A DNA stretch of 32,454 bases. Origin: a virus. A program made the position numbers and the translations under genes. A model generated the notes under the pieces. The model had not been told where the DNA came from. It did not search any database and saw only the letters and a program-made list of their open reading frames with translations. The stretch lies in IMG/VR virus record IMGVR_UViG_3300029448_000204, positions 1-32,454 of that record; one strand, written 5' to 3'. Positions 21,912 to 32,454 of this stretch are shown here, piece after piece. Numbering within the stretch: position 1 is the stretch's first letter; each line of letters starts with the position of its first letter.

Positions 21912-22910
21912 TTAAACTCCCATTGCATCTAGTAAGGTTTTCTGAACTCTACCATTCATGACATTCTCTGCTCTTCTAAAATTAGAGGATGCACAGTTGA
22001 TAGTCTCAGCCGGTGTGTACTTTATGTTATTCTGAACCTTTGCTTTTTCTTCAGCATTATGACCTCTGTATGGGATGTTTCCTCCCCAATCATCGTGGGC
22101 AGTAACAATGGACAAAGGCTTACTTTCATAAACTAGGTAATAAAGATCCTTTTCCAAATCTATGATACCATCATGACAAGTAACTAAATCAATAGTATAG
22201 GCAACCAAACCATTAGCTGTGATCCTATCTGCAACTTGCAGAGGCTTGGCACTAACAACAAAAGCTGTCTTACTTTTGTAAACAGTAGTAGCTAAACCTT
22301 TCATAAATACATTTTTAAACCACGATGGGGAAATGGATAATTCATTATGACATTCGTAATAATTCCAATTGCCCCCTCTTCCTTGAGGTGCTTGTTGTAT
22401 GGATGTTTCAGATCTTAAAGCATCAGAACTAATTTTTATGTTAGTCCTTTGCTGTTTGTCATCCCACCATTTTCTAGCAAACAATTCTGTCAGAGTGCTG
22501 TATTTAGAATTAACAGTTTGACCATTAAAAAATCCATGATCATAAACACGTTCTTTACGAAATACTTTTTTGCCATCTTCCCTATTGCTGTAAATAGCAC
22601 TTTTGTATTTACGTTCTTTTCTAAAATCTTTAACAGCTTGATGACAATTAATAATGCTGTCTAATCCATGATTAACGTAATGCTTTTTATGATTTACAAT
22701 CATAGTAATCTGATCAGCATCCTTTTGACTAAGATCTTTTGGTTTAAAAGACCGGTAGTTATAGCTGTCAAGAATACTAGCTTTTTGTTTTACGTTAAAT
22801 CCAAAAGATTTATATCCCTCGTTTAAAAAGTTTAAATAACTTTCTAATATTTTCTGATCCTTAACATCTTGGCTTTTAGGATCGTATTTTTTACCTAATG
22901 TATATATCAT
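21912..22910 (-). CDS. Protein of unknown function (332 residues)
   Basis: Not recognised. Mixed alpha/beta and rather basic, with long charged helices at the N terminus (DQKILESYLNFLNEGYKSFGF). Two His-rich spots occur near the middle (VNHKKHYVNHGL and YDHGFFNGQT). From about residue 200 there is a beta-rich region with TAFVVSAKPLQVADRITANGLVAYTIDLVTCHDG and SIVTAHDDWGGNIPYRGH. The start at 22910 has GGAG 6 nt upstream. The preceding micro-gene's stop overlaps it. Adjacency to the VWA/MoxR genes suggests it could be a substrate or partner of that pair; this is inference. Confidence 0.65.
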   Translation of the reverse strand: MIYTLGKKYDPKSQDVKDQKILESYLNFLNEGYKSFGFNVKQKASILDSYNYRSFKPKDLSQKDADQITMIVNHKKHYVNHGLDSIINCHQAVKDFRKERKYKSAIYSNREDGKKVFRKERVYDHGFFNGQTVNSKYSTLTELFARKWWDDKQQRTNIKISSDALRSETSIQQAPQGRGGNWNYYECHNELSISPSWFKNVFMKGLATTVYKSKTAFVVSAKPLQVADRITANGLVAYTIDLVTCHDGIIDLEKDLYYLVYESKPLSIVTAHDDWGGNIPYRGHNAEEKAKVQNNIKYTPAETINCASSNFRRAENVMNGRVQKTLLDAMGV

Positions 22911-23086
22911 ATGTAACTCCATAAATGATGATAGTAGTTAGCTGATTTCATGCTTTCGCAATCATCAGTAGGAATACACATTCCTATATCAGCAATGTCG
23001 AAATCACTAGGTACAATCACACATGGGCATGTCGTTTCGCCTCTGTGTGACCATCCTAGAGCCTCGTATTTATCCAAAAGTAGCAC
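22907..23086 (-). CDS. Micro-gene, 59 residues, GTG start, chained between two genes
   Basis: GTG starts on the last base of the VWA gene's stop codon (TAGTG) and the TGA stop overlaps the next gene's ATG (ATGA), so the frame fills the gap exactly. The product, beginning LLLDKYEALGWSHRG, has TTCPCVIVPSDFDIADIGMCIPTDDC with five cysteines overall in a compact region, and ends HHLWSYI. That could be a small metal-binding or disulfide-rich fold, but I do not recognise it. Translation would rely on coupling, as there is no clear ribosome binding site. Perfect stop-start junctions on both sides are the main support. Confidence 0.55.
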   Translation of the reverse strand: MLLLDKYEALGWSHRGETTCPCVIVPSDFDIADIGMCIPTDDCESMKSANYYHHLWSYI

Positions 23087-24297
23087 TAAGCCACTTTCAG
23101 ATAGGTTGTTTGACCAATTGGTGCTTTGTCAGCATTTAGGTCTGTGCTTACCCATAATACCGGATAAGGCATCTCTTCTTTTGGAAAGTCGAAGATCCCC
23201 ATATCAGTAAAATAAATAAAGCTGTCTACCTCAAGATCATTATCTTTGATGTATTCAAACACCGGCATGACACATGTGCCACCTCGACCATTACATCTGA
23301 TCTTGGTTATCTCATCCCCTTGCTCATGCTTGTAGACATTTTGTACTTTGCTGTCGCAAGTGATCACAGTAATTGATTTAGGTTTAAGTTCTAATGACAA
23401 AGCATTTAAACCGCCTAAGAAATACTGTAATTCTTTATCTGATACAGATCCGGAACTATCTACACCAACAACAACATGACCAACACCATAACTTTCTATG
23501 GTAGGGGCAACTATGCCATGACTATAATAGAACTTTCTATGCATCTTCCTAAAAGAAAAGTCGTGAGGATTATCGCCCTCGACATGTCTTTCCACAATGT
23601 CTTGCCAATTGATCTCTGCTCTTTTCATAACATCGATCATCTGTTTTACCTCTGCCGGAACAGTTCCCCTTTCTTTAGCTTGTCTTACAGCTTGGAAGAT
23701 CTCTTCTTTAACGTCTGCCTCTTCCTCTTTTAGTTCAGCCGGAGACATGCCGTCAGTAACATTGTTATCGATGTTGCCCCATGATTGAGGCTGTAACCAA
23801 GTAGGATCTCCATCATCTGATGGCTGTCCATCGCCACTTTGACCTTGTTGCTGTTGCTGTTTTTTCTTAGCTTGGATCTGTGGGGCAATAACATTGTAGA
23901 TCTTTTCAGCCATCCAACCATCAAATTGAGGATCAAATAAACCACCATCCGGCAAAGTTAAACCGGATCTCTCTATTATTGGGTTCATAGATAGATCACA
24001 AGCTATGTTCCATGTCTCAGCATCTCTTTCTTGCTGTCTTAAATGATGCATTAATCCACGATGTTTTACCTCGTGAACAATAACACCTTTTAGCTTTTCA
24101 AACGTGAGGCTTTCAGCATATGCTCTGTTAAAGAATATATCTCTGCCATCAGTTGCAAAGGTTGGGATCTCATTTTTCTCAATGATCTTCATCTTTACTA
24201 GGATAATTCCATAATAAGCATGACCTTGATTACCTATATCCCAATTTAACTGTATCCTAATCTTTGCGAACTTATCTTCTAATTTTAATTCTTTCAT
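23086..24297 (-). CDS. VWA-like / DUF2201 putative metallopeptidase, MoxR partner
   Basis: 403 residues. The N-terminal domain carries VIVHEVKHRGLMHHLRQ with HEVKH at about 75-79, the HExxH signature of the DUF2201 putative metallopeptidase domain. A Gln/Gly/Asp-rich linker follows (about 145-185). The C-terminal domain is VWA-like with VVGVDSSGSVSD; DSSGS at about 280-284 supplies the metal-binding MIDAS residues. These VWA proteins are typically encoded next to a MoxR-type AAA+ ATPase, as here (24378-25451), and work as a remodelling chaperone pair. The phage target is unknown. The start at 24297 has GGAG 6 nt upstream; the ATG at 24309 is part of that site. Confidence 0.85.
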   Translation of the reverse strand: MKELKLEDKFAKIRIQLNWDIGNQGHAYYGIILVKMKIIEKNEIPTFATDGRDIFFNRAYAESLTFEKLKGVIVHEVKHRGLMHHLRQQERDAETWNIACDLSMNPIIERSGLTLPDGGLFDPQFDGWMAEKIYNVIAPQIQAKKKQQQQQGQSGDGQPSDDGDPTWLQPQSWGNIDNNVTDGMSPAELKEEEADVKEEIFQAVRQAKERGTVPAEVKQMIDVMKRAEINWQDIVERHVEGDNPHDFSFRKMHRKFYYSHGIVAPTIESYGVGHVVVGVDSSGSVSDKELQYFLGGLNALSLELKPKSITVITCDSKVQNVYKHEQGDEITKIRCNGRGGTCVMPVFEYIKDNDLEVDSFIYFTDMGIFDFPKEEMPYPVLWVSTDLNADKAPIGQTTYLKVA

Positions 24298-24310
24298 AAT
24301 GGTCTCCAAA

Positions 24311-24330
24311 AAAAGTTTACGTAAAGTTTT
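24311..24330 (+). promoter_or_regulatory. Recurrent 20-nt near-palindrome before the VWA gene
   Basis: Exact AAAAGTTTACGTAAAGTTTT between the MoxR and VWA genes. Read in the direction of the genes (- strand) it is followed by a T run and then the GGAG of the VWA gene, so it sits immediately upstream of that ribosome binding site. Confidence 0.5.
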
Positions 24331-24332
24331 GA

Positions 24333-24369
24333 TCTAGGATAAAGCACAAATACTGCACTCTATCCTAGA
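24333..24369. terminator. Hairpin TCTAGGATA / TATCCTAGA with flanking T runs
   Basis: A 9-bp perfect stem (24333-24341 with 24361-24369) encloses a 19-nt loop, right beside the 20-nt near-palindrome. On the + strand a run of seven T follows within 4 bases. On the - strand (gene direction) the seven-T run comes only after the near-palindrome. It may attenuate transcription between the MoxR and VWA genes or protect an mRNA end. Confidence 0.45.
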
Positions 24370-24377
24370 GTATTTTT

Positions 24378-25451
24378 TTAAAGTAATAGGTCTTTCAAGT
24401 TACCTTGAGATCCTAAAACTTGTTTCATAGCTTGATGAGTAACTAATGTTTTATTCCTAGTAACAGCATCTTTAAGCATGAAAGCCATGAACTCTTGCTC
24501 CGGTAGTCTCTGCATATACGTGAGAATACTTGCACAGTTTGTCATGTTCATCTTACTAGCTAAAGATCCACATAAAGCATACAGAACACCACGATCTTCC
24601 GGTATAGCTGTATTAGTTGGATCATTAACAATGCTGTCAAAAGCCGGTAGCTTGTCATACAGCTTTATATGAGCCATCAGACTAGCAGAGGCTGTCTCGC
24701 CAATTTGCCCCTCTAAAACACCTCTTAAAGTAGTGTTGTCGAAACCTAAGTTTAAAAGAACTCCGGCTCTTTCTACTGATCTAGGTGTACAGTTGCTGTT
24801 AGCTGAAACATCAAACTTATAAAGATATTGATCATCAAACTTTAACCATGAACTCAATCTGTGATCTACATTGTGAGATGCATAATAATGCAGTAAATCA
24901 TCTAGGTTAATTTCTAGGCTAAGATATGTAACTCTATCTCTAAGCTGTGATGGCAACTTGTTAGATCCGGCTCTGTCTTTAAGACGATTACCGGCACAGA
25001 CAATCATCCATCCATCCGGTAGATAATGATCCCCTAGTCTACGTTCATCGACTAGCTGTCCAAAGATGTTGTGAGACATTAATGTAGCTTGGGCAACCTC
25101 ATCAACAAAGATAATACCGCATCCCTCAGTAGGCATAAAAGTAGGTCTTAGTCTGATCATACTTTCTCCATCCTTAGATGCTACAAGCCATCCGGCAATC
25201 TCTGATGGATCATACTGTGGCAAACCAAAGTTAATAAATCCTAGCTTATCTTCTTTGTAGTCAAATATTTCTCTACAAACTTTTAAGATAAGGCTGTCAG
25301 TAGTTAATGAATTGACACATGTGGTTTTACCCTCGCCAACACCGCCCTCAACATAAGGGATAACAAGCTGATCCTTACGACCACCTTGAACAGTTTTAAA
25401 GTTATGGATTAACATGCCTTGAATAGCATTTCTTATATCTGTAATACGCAT
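24378..25451 (-). CDS. MoxR-type AAA+ ATPase
   Basis: 357 residues. Walker A GGVGEGKTT (36-44); Walker B IIFVDEV (about 113-119); a sensor-like IVCAGNRLKDRAG (about 150-162) and the LPSQLRDRV arginine-finger region follow in the expected order. The C-terminal 150 residues are helical, as in the lid of this family. MoxR ATPases act with VWA-domain partners to insert metals or remodel protein complexes, and the partner gene is next in the operon. The ribosome binding site AAGGAGACTATTAA precedes the ATG. The target in the infected cell cannot be told from sequence. Confidence 0.85.
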   Translation of the reverse strand: MRITDIRNAIQGMLIHNFKTVQGGRKDQLVIPYVEGGVGEGKTTCVNSLTTDSLILKVCREIFDYKEDKLGFINFGLPQYDPSEIAGWLVASKDGESMIRLRPTFMPTEGCGIIFVDEVAQATLMSHNIFGQLVDERRLGDHYLPDGWMIVCAGNRLKDRAGSNKLPSQLRDRVTYLSLEINLDDLLHYYASHNVDHRLSSWLKFDDQYLYKFDVSANSNCTPRSVERAGVLLNLGFDNTTLRGVLEGQIGETASASLMAHIKLYDKLPAFDSIVNDPTNTAIPEDRGVLYALCGSLASKMNMTNCASILTYMQRLPEQEFMAFMLKDAVTRNKTLVTHQAMKQVLGSQGNLKDLLL

Positions 25452-25463
25452 TTAATAGTCTCC

Positions 25464-25754
25464 TTATTTAGATTGTTGTTTAAATTTATTTAGTATTTTC
25501 TTAGCTTGTTTTTCATGCTCTGCACCTAGATATTCAATAACCTTTTCGATAACTTGGTCATTGGTTAAATCTTGTAAGTGTACAAGCATAAATTTTTCAA
25601 TAGCTTGATCAAACTTATTCTCAGCTACTTTTTTCTCATACACAGCCTTTACAAGCTGTGTACTATTTTGGTGCAGATCCCATTTAAGTTCTCTGACTTT
25701 ATTGTACATATGTACTAATTTAGATGTTCGTTCTGTGATTATCTTTTCTGACAT
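25464..25754 (-). CDS. Hypothetical helical protein (96 residues)
   Basis: Not recognised. Almost entirely helical and charged: TERTSKLVHMYNKVRELKWDLHQNSTQLVKAVYEKK, then EKFMLVHLQDLTNDQVIEKVIEYLG, ending in a Lys/Gln-rich tail. The start at 25754 is set by AAGGAG six bases upstream of the ATG. The same frame is open for another 45 codons upstream, including a hydrophobic segment, but no ribosome binding site precedes those starts. It is co-oriented with MoxR and the SprT-like gene and may belong to that module. Confidence 0.6.
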   Translation of the reverse strand: MSEKIITERTSKLVHMYNKVRELKWDLHQNSTQLVKAVYEKKVAENKFDQAIEKFMLVHLQDLTNDQVIEKVIEYLGAEHEKQAKKILNKFKQQSK

Positions 25755-25857
25755 ATAGTCTCCTTTGTTTAGATTGTCGTTGTAGTCCATGATGATAGTA
25801 CATCCAATGAACAAGCAGACACAGACCATATAGATCTGTGTCAATTTGTGCATTAGT
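25755..25857 (-). other. Intergenic leader with 8-bp inverted repeat
   Basis: The 103-bp gap holds GACACAGA / TCTGTGTC (25818-25825 with 25835-25842, loop of 9). On the - strand the hairpin lies 64 nt before the start of the 96-residue gene. The frame of that gene stays open through the gap and would encode a hydrophobic peptide (YMVCVCLFIGCTIIM). A leader hairpin or an in-frame membrane extension are both possible. Confidence 0.4.
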
Positions 25858-26490
25858 TTAGGCAAGTAAAGCCTCAGTAACATCGTCAACTACTGACTGC
25901 TCTTCCTCTGCCTCATCGATTGCCTTTCTGCCCTTTTCTGCAATCTCAAACCTATTGATTAATCTAACCTTGAAATCATCTAGTTCAGATTGTGTCATGA
26001 TAAGACCATCTCTTTGCTTACCGGTTTTAGTCTTTAGACCTACCAACTTATCGATGATTGTATCCAAAGGTGTTTTAACATCATCGCCCTTATTATGTGC
26101 GAGGATCTTAGCTTGAGATTTAAGATCTAACTTAGCAAACAAATCTAACACGAAAGTTTTTGTCAGATTGCTAGACGGCATATCAGCCTTATGCTTGTTT
26201 GAGAAAAGAGTTATATTTCTCTTAAACAATTCTGCTTGAGTTCTAGACATACCAATTTCTGCCTCAAGTATAGTTAAGATCTCGTTTGAATGATCCTCTA
26301 GAAGATTGCCGGTGTCAGTTCTAGGTAATGCATGGACTATTACTACTCCCTCTGCATACTGATCAACTCTTATGGCACTCATAGCCTCAGATTGTGCTTT
26401 GTTAGATCCCTTTAGCAACGTGTGCTGTGCCTCTTGAGATGCCATTTGTTTTTTAATATCGCTAGATATAGTTACTTTATTTTTCTGCAT
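25858..26490 (-). CDS. Probable internal translation product of the SprT-like gene (210 residues)
   Basis: In-frame ATG at 26490 preceded by GAGGAGACTATA. This is the same ribosome binding sequence, AGGAGACTAT, as before the neighbouring 96-residue gene and the MoxR gene. It would yield only the C-terminal region (MQKNKVTISSDIKKQMASQ onward), without the HEVSH protease site. Either two proteins are made from one frame, or two once-separate genes have fused after loss of a stop codon. The product is not recognised. Confidence 0.5.
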   Translation of the reverse strand: MQKNKVTISSDIKKQMASQEAQHTLLKGSNKAQSEAMSAIRVDQYAEGVVIVHALPRTDTGNLLEDHSNEILTILEAEIGMSRTQAELFKRNITLFSNKHKADMPSSNLTKTFVLDLFAKLDLKSQAKILAHNKGDDVKTPLDTIIDKLVGLKTKTGKQRDGLIMTQSELDDFKVRLINRFEIAEKGRKAIDEAEEEQSVVDDVTEALLA

Positions 26491-27051
26491 TATAGTCTCC
26501 TCTATTACAGATTGTTTAGGTTGGTTTTTTTCTAGTATGTCCTTTTCAATAATAGGATTAACTAGGTCTCTTCTTAAATACCTATAGATTGCCTTAAAAC
26601 AATCTCCATGTGGCTTTCTATAAGTGGTCTTAAATCTATTCACATACTTGGCTCTTGCGAATTGAACATGATGGCTGACCTCATGACTAACACTCATCAG
26701 ATAAGCATGATCTAGGTTAAGGCATTTTCTGCCCCCTATTTGTGGATCATTATTGTAGCTTTTATATTCTGTATGAAAATGTTCTTCATCTAGGTGTTGC
26801 CAATAACTAAGATTAATTTGAATACTACTAGCACAAGCATTAGTTGCTCCGGCACTTTTGTAGTTAACAACTTTAGTGACAGCTACTGCTCTATCTACAT
26901 CCTTAGATGTAATATTTAATTCGTATTCTTTTTTCTTGAGATGGTTCATACATTTACGAACCATTTTTTTGATTGTATTTGCATGGGCGGTATTCTCTTT
27001 TTTAGAATAATCATACTTATGATATGATAAATTTATGTCTTTATTAGGCAT
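25858..27051 (-). CDS. SprT-like zinc metalloprotease with helical C-terminal region
   Basis: 397 residues. The N-terminal domain contains SVSHEVSHHVQFA with HEVSH at about 123-127, then KPHGDCFKAIYRYLR, the distal His-Gly-x-x-F element. Together these are the pattern of SprT/Spartan-type zinc metalloproteases, which in cells cut DNA-protein crosslinks. From about residue 190 the protein changes to a helical charged region ending in an acidic tail (DEAEEEQSVVDDV). At the junction, GAGGAGACTATA precedes an in-frame ATG (26490), so the C-terminal half could also be made alone. The start at 27051 is chosen because GGAG lies 6 nt upstream. A hammerhead ribozyme lies in its 5' leader. Confidence 0.8.
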   Translation of the reverse strand: MPNKDINLSYHKYDYSKKENTAHANTIKKMVRKCMNHLKKKEYELNITSKDVDRAVAVTKVVNYKSAGATNACASSIQINLSYWQHLDEEHFHTEYKSYNNDPQIGGRKCLNLDHAYLMSVSHEVSHHVQFARAKYVNRFKTTYRKPHGDCFKAIYRYLRRDLVNPIIEKDILEKNQPKQSVIEETIMQKNKVTISSDIKKQMASQEAQHTLLKGSNKAQSEAMSAIRVDQYAEGVVIVHALPRTDTGNLLEDHSNEILTILEAEIGMSRTQAELFKRNITLFSNKHKADMPSSNLTKTFVLDLFAKLDLKSQAKILAHNKGDDVKTPLDTIIDKLVGLKTKTGKQRDGLIMTQSELDDFKVRLINRFEIAEKGRKAIDEAEEEQSVVDDVTEALLA

Positions 27052-27069
27052 ATGGCACTCCATTAAATT

Positions 27070-27122
27070 AACTGTTTCGACCTTTTGGTCTCATCAGATC
27101 AAGCACACACTTGATGACAGTT
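27070..27122 (-). ncRNA. Hammerhead ribozyme, stem III open (type III)
   Basis: All core elements are present on the - strand, 5' to 3'. Stem III strand AACUGU (27122-27117); cleavage base C (27116), giving the triplet GUC; stem I AUCAAG / CUUGAU (27115-27110, 27103-27098) closed by UGUGUG; core CUGAUGA (27097-27091); stem II GACC / GGUC (27090-27087, 27082-27079) closed by AAAA; core GAAA (27078-27075); stem III strand CAGUU (27074-27070), with the last A of GAAA pairing to U of GUC. Every conserved nucleotide and closing pair fits the consensus. Predicted cleavage is between 27116 and 27115, in the 5' leader of the SprT-like gene. Known hammerheads self-cleave to a 2',3'-cyclic phosphate and a 5'-OH. 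Confidence 0.93.
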
Positions 27123-27124
27123 GA

Positions 27125-27142
27125 GGGCAGTAATAACTGCCC
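27125..27142 (-). other. Hairpin next to the ribozyme, GGGCAGT / ACTGCCC
   Basis: A 7-bp perfect stem with a 4-nt loop begins 7 bases after the zinc-finger gene's stop codon and ends 2 bases before the ribozyme. After cleavage it would cap the 3' end of the upstream message. There is no T run, so it is not an intrinsic terminator. Confidence 0.65.
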
Positions 27143-27149
27143 CCATTTA

Positions 27150-27875
27150 TTATGTGATAGGTGTTAGCTGTGATTGTTTCCAAGTTTGCCATCTCTTTTT
27201 TATTCGAGGCTGAACATGATTTACAATCTCGTCATATTCTTCTCTAAGTTTTTTGACGTTAAAAACTGTTGTGCTTTCTGATGCCAAGATCTGCTTAGAT
27301 ATTTCTCTACATCTTTCGTCTAACAAAAGAGAATAATCTATTAAATAAGCATTGCTGATCTCATAAGGATCTTTTCTTGATCCCATGCACTCGCCCATAT
27401 GAAAGCTATAACCTTTAGTGTATCCATGAGATGCTAGTTTACCGGTATCTCTGTTTACCTTATGGACAGATCCACAAATCTGACATGTACCTAAATGAGT
27501 GGCTTGTTTCTCAGTAGGTTTGTATTCTTTTTTCTCAGCCACTTTCTTAACAACCTCAAAAGATTTTAAGTGAACTCTGTCCATTGCTAACAGCAAAACA
27601 AGCTGTGCATTAATTCCAAATGCTTGGAAGATATCAACATGTTTAGCTTTTACTTGGTGCAAATTAGATGGCACATCCCAATAATTAAAACCTTTAGATT
27701 TACCTAGATGATAATCTTTATTCTCTTTAACAAGATTTTCGTAGGCTCTGTTTAAAGTTTCGAGGGCATCTTTCTTAGCTGTTTTAGTGTGGAAACATTT
27801 GTCTGTTTCTACCTTTGTTTTGATTTCAGATACTTGGTTTTTATAATCGATATATGTTCTCAATTGGATCTCCAT
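27150..27875 (-). CDS. Zinc-finger-like phage protein of unknown function (241 residues)
   Basis: N-terminal half is helical and charged. At about residue 129, GTCQICGSVHKVN gives a C-x2-C pair, followed by GKLASHGYTKG and HMGECMGSRKDPYEIS, which offer His and Cys for a treble-clef-like zinc site. This C-x-x-C-G...HGY...C-x-G arrangement is one I recognise from phage proteins without an assigned function. The C terminus is a charged helical region. The ATG at 27875 has no ribosome binding site, but its own GGAG lies 6 nt before an in-frame TTG at 27863, which may be the true start. It is the first gene of the - strand block, and the ribozyme follows its stop. Confidence 0.7.
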   Translation of the reverse strand: MEIQLRTYIDYKNQVSEIKTKVETDKCFHTKTAKKDALETLNRAYENLVKENKDYHLGKSKGFNYWDVPSNLHQVKAKHVDIFQAFGINAQLVLLLAMDRVHLKSFEVVKKVAEKKEYKPTEKQATHLGTCQICGSVHKVNRDTGKLASHGYTKGYSFHMGECMGSRKDPYEISNAYLIDYSLLLDERCREISKQILASESTTVFNVKKLREEYDEIVNHVQPRIKKRWQTWKQSQLTPIT

Positions 27876-31437: not shown

Positions 31438-32454
31438 AAAAAATTATGACACCCGGACCTTCATTTAAGGAAATGTCAGAACCTCAACCTGATATCAGCA
31501 TTGAAGTTGAAAATCCTGATTCTGTATCAGTTGAAACAGAAGATGGGGGAATGATTATTGATTTTACTGGAGATCAAGTTGAAGAGATAATGGGCGATGA
31601 TTTTGATAGAAACCTTGCTGAAGAGATAGAAGAAAACGATTTAGATGAAATATCAGCAGAGCTTATATCAAATTTTAATTCAGACCGGCAATCAAGGAGC
31701 GAGTGGGCTAAGAGTTATGTTAAAGGACTTGACCTTCTTGGAATGAAGATAGAAGAAAGACAACAGCCGTGGGCAGGTTCCTCTGGTGTGTTTCACCCAA
31801 TACTTACAGAATCAATAGTTAGATTCCAAGCGCAGGCTATGGGTGAGATATACCCTGCTTCCGGGCCAGTAAGAACAAAGATACTTGGTAAGTTATCTGT
31901 AGAAAAAACAGAGCAGGCACTCAGAGTTGAAAACGAAATGAATTATCTCCTAACAGAAGAGATGACAGAGTATCGTGATGAAACAGAACAGATGTTATTC
32001 AAGCTACCATTAGCAGGATCTGCATTTAAGAAGGTTTACTATGACCCAATAATGGAAAGACCGTGTGCAATGTTTGTACCGGCAGAAGACTTTGTAGTCT
32101 CATACGGTGCATCTGATCTTATGACATGTGAAAGATACACACATGTAATGAAAAAGACATCAAATGATATTGTAAAACTACAGAATAATGGCTTTTATCG
32201 TGACATAGAGCTACCAGATCCAGAGCCTGATATGTCAGATATAAAAGAAAAATATGATGAATTAGATGGTGAAACAGCCACCATTGAAGATGATGATAGA
32301 CATACACTCCTCGAAATGCATGTAGATATGGAGATGCCAGAACCATTTAACGAAGAAGACGGTGTAGCAAGACCATATGTAATTACCATAGATAAATCAT
32401 CAAGAGAGATATTATCAATCAGAAGGAATTACTACGAAGATGACAAAAAGAAAA
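31428..32454 (+). CDS. Portal protein, 5' part only
   Basis: Starts at ATG 31428 (AGGA 6-9 nt upstream) and stays open to the window end, giving 342 codons. The first 90 residues are acidic. Then come WAKSYVKGLDLLGMKIEERQQPWAGSS and GVFHPILTESIVRFQAQAMGEIYPASGPV, followed by ALRVENEMNYLLTEEM and LPLAGSAFKKVYYDPIM. This is the typical opening of podovirus-type portal proteins, including the PAEDFVVSYGA segment. The portal forms the dodecameric ring through which DNA is packaged and ejected. Synteny with the large terminase supports the call. The C-terminal half lies outside the window. Confidence 0.9.
   Translation, partial: MAVEKIMTPGPSFKEMSEPQPDISIEVENPDSVSVETEDGGMIIDFTGDQVEEIMGDDFDRNLAEEIEENDLDEISAELISNFNSDRQSRSEWAKSYVKGLDLLGMKIEERQQPWAGSSGVFHPILTESIVRFQAQAMGEIYPASGPVRTKILGKLSVEKTEQALRVENEMNYLLTEEMTEYRDETEQMLFKLPLAGSAFKKVYYDPIMERPCAMFVPAEDFVVSYGASDLMTCERYTHVMKKTSNDIVKLQNNGFYRDIELPDPEPDMSDIKEKYDELDGETATIEDDDRHTLLEMHVDMEMPEPFNEEDGVARPYVITIDKSSREILSIRRNYYEDDKKK

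Follow-up and report, generated by a model that had tools for sequence, protein, structure and literature searches.

Positions 27070-27122 on the minus strand of a marine phage sequence form a complete type III hammerhead ribozyme (HHR1), which lies between two co-directional genes and is abutted on its 5' side by a 9-bp hairpin, a layout that recurs in many phages. We consider it very likely that HHR1 acts in cis on a polycistronic message, cutting it into an upstream RNA with a hairpin-capped 3' end and a downstream mRNA with a 5'-OH. The window analysed is a whole 32,454-base IMG/VR virus record; its terminase shares 53-55% identity with the terminases of Pelagibacter phage HTVC027P and phage 023Pt_psg01, and its source is a marine phage, distantly related to the pelagiphages.

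The hammerhead and its genomic setting

27150-27875, minus strand: upstream co-directional gene (ORF), 241 aa, CxxC..H..C zinc-finger-like motif; kept upstream of either ribozyme type in relatives
27123-27144, minus strand: hairpin GGGGGCAGU-UAUU-ACUGCCCUC, 9 bp, 0 nt from stem III (folds; conserved, with an altered loop, in L009/L010)
27070-27122, minus strand: HHR1, type III hammerhead ribozyme (sequence, fold, descriptor and shuffles, covariation, model R1), reading 5' to 3' AACUGU C AUCAAG UGUGUG CUUGAU CUGAUGA GACC AAAA GGUC GAA ACAGUU
27117-27122/27070-27075, minus strand: stem III, AACUGU/ACAGUU, 6 bp
27116, minus strand: C17 of the GUC triplet
27115-27116, minus strand: predicted cleavage site (GUC triplet; analogy with the hammerhead mechanism)
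27110-27115/27098-27103, minus strand: stem I, AUCAAG/CUUGAU, 6 bp, or 7 with a U-G pair
27104-27109, minus strand: loop I, UGUGUG
27091-27097, minus strand: CUGAUGA
27087-27090/27079-27082, minus strand: stem II, GACC/GGUC
27083-27086, minus strand: loop II, AAAA
27076-27078, minus strand: GAA
25858-27051, minus strand: downstream SprT-like metalloprotease candidate, HEVSH..HGDCF motif (ORF, relatives' alignment and upstream sequences)
25464-25889, minus strand: 141-aa ORF, in the predicted excised message
24378-25451, minus strand: ATPase gene (family match), in the predicted excised message
23086-24309, minus strand: DUF2201/VWA protein gene (family match), in the predicted excised message
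22987-27115, minus strand: predicted excised message (gene order, family matches, two flanking hammerheads)

Every hammerhead element that the original prediction had placed on this strand is there: the CUGANGA...GAAA core, the A15.1-U16.1 pair, an NUH cleavage triplet (GUC) and stems I and III of 6 bp each. The unconstrained minimum-energy fold of the segment is the hammerhead exactly, with stem III open and stems I and II as hairpins around the core, and this fold, together with covariation in all three stems, upholds the type III assignment. The predicted cut at 27116/27115 agrees with the placement of the GUC triplet. A descriptor search for the core plus three stems in all topologies gave one match in the window, with 17 stem pairs, and 300 dinucleotide shuffles (19.5 Mb of strand) gave none above 15, which, with an E-value of 5e-21 for the covariance model R1 described below, justifies the earlier view that a chance match is very unlikely. 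The remaining CUGANGA...GAAA matches in the window were rejected for want of stems, except one at 22946, which belongs to a second ribozyme (HHR2). The word 'complete' needs qualifying: all elements are present, but the unit is larger than was described, as the abutting 5' hairpin appears to be part of it and HHR2 lies 4.1 kb downstream.

The position between two co-directional genes of the same strand was also correctly predicted, and the gap measures 98 bp as claimed when the ATG at 27051 is taken as the start of the SprT-like gene, a choice that relatives support. This start codon stands 18 nt past HHR1 and has a Shine-Dalgarno sequence, GGAG; the longer reading frame that opens at 27063 is probably artefactual. 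The mechanically called starts at 27063 and 22922 are both probably wrong, an ATG 12 nt inward following GGAG in each case; of these two inner ATGs, the one at 27051 is kept in relatives. The SprT-like protein had no significant match in Pfam or the PDB, so that its label rests on the motif. Neither a protein search with this gene nor a distant nucleotide search found a match in named phages. The descriptor found no hammerhead in the first 50 kb of each of the nearest named phages (023Pt_psg01, HTVC027P, HTVC023P and DSL-LC04), where model matches were weak and at chance level only.

The hammerhead of sTRSV is of type III, with a GUC triplet, a 6-bp stem I whose loop starts with UGUG, and a 4-bp stem II with a tetraloop. 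HHR1 shares its topology, triplet, stem I and II lengths and loop types with this type (RF00008, plant satellite RNAs), but its place is the leader of an mRNA in a DNA phage operon and not a circular RNA replicon.

Compensatory change and a second ribozyme

The family alignment, with 13 members drawn from both HHR sites, keeps the hammerhead core throughout, and 94.7% of its pair cells are standard, although the members are related, some as paralogues, and pair cells are not independent events. Relatives had been proposed as a source of compensatory changes, and the stems are indeed conserved in this way: in 12 of the 16 pairs both partners change and still pair, and covariation, seen in stems III, I and II, reaches 0.874 against 0.249 in shuffled alignments and about 0.12 or less in slid controls. 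Loop I, UGUGU(R), and loop II, NAAA, stay constant while the stems vary, as a putative tertiary loop contact would require.

A covariance-model check gave opposite answers with general and phage-specific models. With Rfam, RF00008 scored HHR1 at only 21.9 bits, below its gathering score of 48.5, and at gathering score nothing was found in the window, nor in nine other contigs with well-formed hammerheads. As Rfam misses all comparable phage hammerheads checked, its silence on HHR1 is no counter-evidence, and it was set aside as an uninformative detector. R1 derives from 39 unrelated phage type III hammerheads (alignment A4, itself strongly covarying) with the window's phage family left out; it scored HHR1 at 72.6 bits (E 5e-21) and positions 22941-22993 of the minus strand, HHR2, at 62.9 bits (E 7e-18), the E-values being rough and the bit scores unaffected. 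A third, weak R1 match (31520-31541, plus strand, E 0.09) has no core and was rejected.

23007-23059, minus strand: long hairpin with imperfect pairing, separated from HHR2 by 13 nt on its upstream side (fold)
22941-22993, minus strand: HHR2, type III, U10.1-U11.1 mismatch, AUA triplet (R1, stem II covariation in relatives)
22986-22987, minus strand: predicted HHR2 cut, between 22987 and 22986
21912-22910, minus strand: 336-aa gene downstream of HHR2, which lies about 30 nt before its start

HHR2 (GCUGAU A UAGGAA UGUGUA UUCCUA CUGAUGA U-UGC-GAAA-GCA-U GAA AUCAGC) has no abutting hairpin. Its stem II reads UGC/GCA, CAC/GUG or CUC/GAG in relatives, a compensatory series, and HHR1 and HHR2 together bracket the SprT-like, ATPase and VWA genes. 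The U10.1-U11.1 mismatch is a known active hammerhead variant (PMC3088659), and it is present in 46 of the 101 phage type III clusters among the matches listed, which were fetched with a pattern blind to these positions. A rarer A10.1-A11.1 mismatch was seen in the type III variants of L111, L180, L188, L359 and L365.

The abutting hairpin and the exchange of topologies

The HHR1 hairpin ends 7 nt upstream of the predicted cut, and its counterpart is found before most phage type III hammerheads surveyed (from IMG/VR scans, clustered at 80% similarity so that shared ancestry partly remains, with fetch patterns blind to the sequence upstream of the ribozyme). Among the matches listed, a hairpin of at least 6 bp ending at most 2 nt from the ribozyme precedes 113 of 157 type III but only 34 of 216 type I hammerheads (p 7e-29, type III versus type I, 60-nt windows), the same measure giving about one third at background offsets. 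The 35 nt before the phage type III ribozymes listed have a median folding energy of -12.4 kcal/mol; at offsets of at least 10 nt the value is about -4, and before the listed type I the median is -3.4 kcal/mol. Type I has a hairpin of its own: its stem III folds as a stable hairpin, which stops 1 nt short of the cut in 201 of the 207 matches listed. The spacing is tight, the hairpin standing 0 nt (69 cases) or 1 nt (16 cases) from stem III in 85 of the 102 listed matches with a fold below -7 kcal/mol, and the distance from hairpin to cut keeps within a narrow band, mostly 5-8 nt, among the matches listed. Bacterial genome bins behave similarly: in 64% of 74 clusters a fold below -7 kcal/mol ends at most 3 nt from the ribozyme, and the upstream fold has a median of -8.8 kcal/mol versus -5.3 at a control offset (p 2e-6).

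Flanking genes, with ORFs called mechanically, are placed regularly as well. Among the matches listed, an ATG ORF begins at most 80 nt downstream of 140 of 147 type III and 183 of 198 type I ribozymes, the median distance to the ATG being 22 and 21 nt, respectively; the stop of the upstream ORF precedes type III by a median of 35.5 nt and type I by one of 0.5 nt, a difference of about the room that the hairpin occupies. This comparison suggests that phage hammerheads share a fixed design by which the upstream message ends in a hairpin.

Two further observations concern the surveyed sequences. Type III hammerheads in L102, L175, L190, L191 and L195 follow long hairpins whose AT-rich top is UUUACUGGUAAA-like; some of these hairpins resemble intrinsic terminators. 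The phage-type type III pattern is also matched by 75 bacterial-genome stretches (L329-L403), and those with a named lineage come mostly from Patescibacteria (CPR) bins, as the bacteria's own or phage DNA.

The SprT-like gap itself does not always hold the same topology. It contains an HHR1-type type III ribozyme in the window, L001, L009/L016, L010 and L015, and in L002-L008 and L011-L013 a type I ribozyme instead (CCUAG-CUGAYGA-GACCUAAUGAGGUC-GAAAC..GAGCAGU..ACUGCUC-UUUGUM-CUAGG), whose stem I covaries as well; L143-L146, L150-L152 and L091 have type I in the gap and type III one ORF or more upstream. L009 (type III) and L011 (type I) share the upstream gene and closely resemble each other in the SprT-like N-terminus. 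In several type I cases the stop codon of the upstream gene lies inside or beside the ribozyme. Up to four ribozymes can occur in one phage operon, as in L145 (3336-8649; type III, III-UU, I and III-UU in this order), where each of the first two stands before a single ORF and the SprT-like block lies between the third and the fourth.

All SprT-like relatives with a readable gap have a hammerhead of type III or I, except L147-L149 and L154. In these four, the GAGCAGUA..UACUGCUC hairpin is kept and no hammerhead is recognisable, so that the ribozyme is dispensable there; a hidden ribozyme of another class was sought in the L147 gap (L147:2780-3040), where Rfam gave no credible match. The SprT-like leader of L147, L148, L149 and L154 possibly holds another processing element.

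A passage from type III to type I through recombination between the shared cores predicts a hybrid, which was absent. Loss of one of two tandem ribozymes would fit better, and this we infer only, because the neighbouring genes differ between relatives.

Proposed message processing and its alternatives

We propose that a minus-strand polycistronic transcript would run through the zinc-finger gene, the GC-rich hairpin folding before the hammerhead, which would then sever its own backbone at 27116/27115. Upstream of the cut, the message would end with the hairpin, 7 further nt and a 2',3'-cyclic phosphate, resembling in geometry the end made by an intrinsic terminator. The SprT-like gene would become the first of a new 5'-OH message, with stems I and II as leader and the start codon 18 nt on, and HHR2 would end this message after the VWA gene, leaving SprT-like, ATPase and VWA genes as one 4.1-kb unit. 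Cleavage in the cell would serve message processing with a protected 3' end.

Precedents exist. According to Perreault et al. (2011, PMC3088659), hammerheads of types I-III occur in phages and prophages and were proposed to cut long phage transcripts; tandem phage hammerheads cut such transcripts in vitro, and in the Agrobacterium tumefaciens case also in E. coli. HHR1 as a kind is therefore less surprising than it was first rated. The core, topologies and intergenic operon position of those hammerheads are like those of HHR1 and HHR2, and clusters flanking single genes and the U10.1-U11.1 variant were already reported in the same text. The HHR1 family, unlike that set, belongs to uncultured marine phages, and the available text mentions neither a hairpin directly next to type III ribozymes nor a case in which type I takes the place of type III within a single syntenic gap. 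It also describes HHphage of haloviruses HF1/HF2, a variant of the hammerhead located 13 nt ahead of a phage helicase start codon, with a major transcript end mapped at most three nucleotides from the cut; as given there, the HHphage core is altered, with atypical insertions (the analogue HHmeta needs high Mg2+), whereas the HHR1 core is consensus. Transcript processing by phage hammerheads was thus already proposed in 2011 (PMC3088659), and the hairpin rule and the topology exchange appear to be new: no mention of either was found in the literature searched, with subscription papers mostly outside it, which is weak evidence of newness. A 2017 review (PMC6155905) still called the role of hammerheads in phages an open question.

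Several points weigh against message processing as proposed: the sub-threshold RF00008 score, the core-adjacent mismatch, AUA triplet and lack of an abutting hairpin in HHR2, the gap of L147-L149 and L154 with a hairpin and no recognisable hammerhead, and the fact that the hairpin could aid folding of the ribozyme instead of protecting the upstream RNA. This last reading, in which HHR1 cuts and the hairpin stacks coaxially on the open stem III and blocks upstream invasion, is a serious possibility to which we give somewhat less than even weight. The 0-1 nt gap is tighter than a cap would need, and type I, whose closed stem III would make such a hairpin needless, lacks one; yet the distance from hairpin to cut is likewise narrow, and in some AT-rich phages the hairpins are long or terminator-like. 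Folding aid and 3' cap are compatible and not exclusive. As for the low RF00008 score, a decayed or inactive hammerhead would explain it, but we find this scarcely credible given that the core matches the consensus throughout and is retained by every relative, that stems III, I and II covary and that the R1 score is far above noise.

The exchange of types I and III between very similar flanks (L009 and L011) and the four ribozymes of L145 would also be expected of hitch-hiking cassettes spread by recombination at gene boundaries with little benefit to the phage. This is unlikely in our view: the stems are maintained by compensatory change, the distance to the start codon varies little and the neighbouring genes remain in place while the topology changes, all of which argues that something is selected at the site. 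Joining of the 5'-OH and cyclic-phosphate ends released by HHR1 and HHR2 into a retrozyme-like circle is very improbable, even though a defined 4.1-kb segment should have ends of the right chemistry at either side; the segment is protein-coding, no RNA ligase was found among the window proteins scanned and, according to PMC3088659, neither circular nor spliced products of tandem phage hammerheads were detectable.

Returning to message processing, we tentatively extend it to phage hammerheads at large, as a conjecture that could well prove wrong: they may be 3'-end-forming modules obeying the rule that a stable hairpin stands between the upstream stop and the cut, provided in type I by its own stem III and in type III by the abutting hairpin. 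The two types would hence be interchangeable at a given site, and at gene boundaries the ribozyme would replace a terminator plus promoter and set the dose of each gene. Current Rfam models overlook such phage hammerheads at gathering scores. The exchange of types I and III and the type III-specific hairpin now make possible a cheap and concrete test of whether the hairpin governs cleavage or the life of the upstream message.
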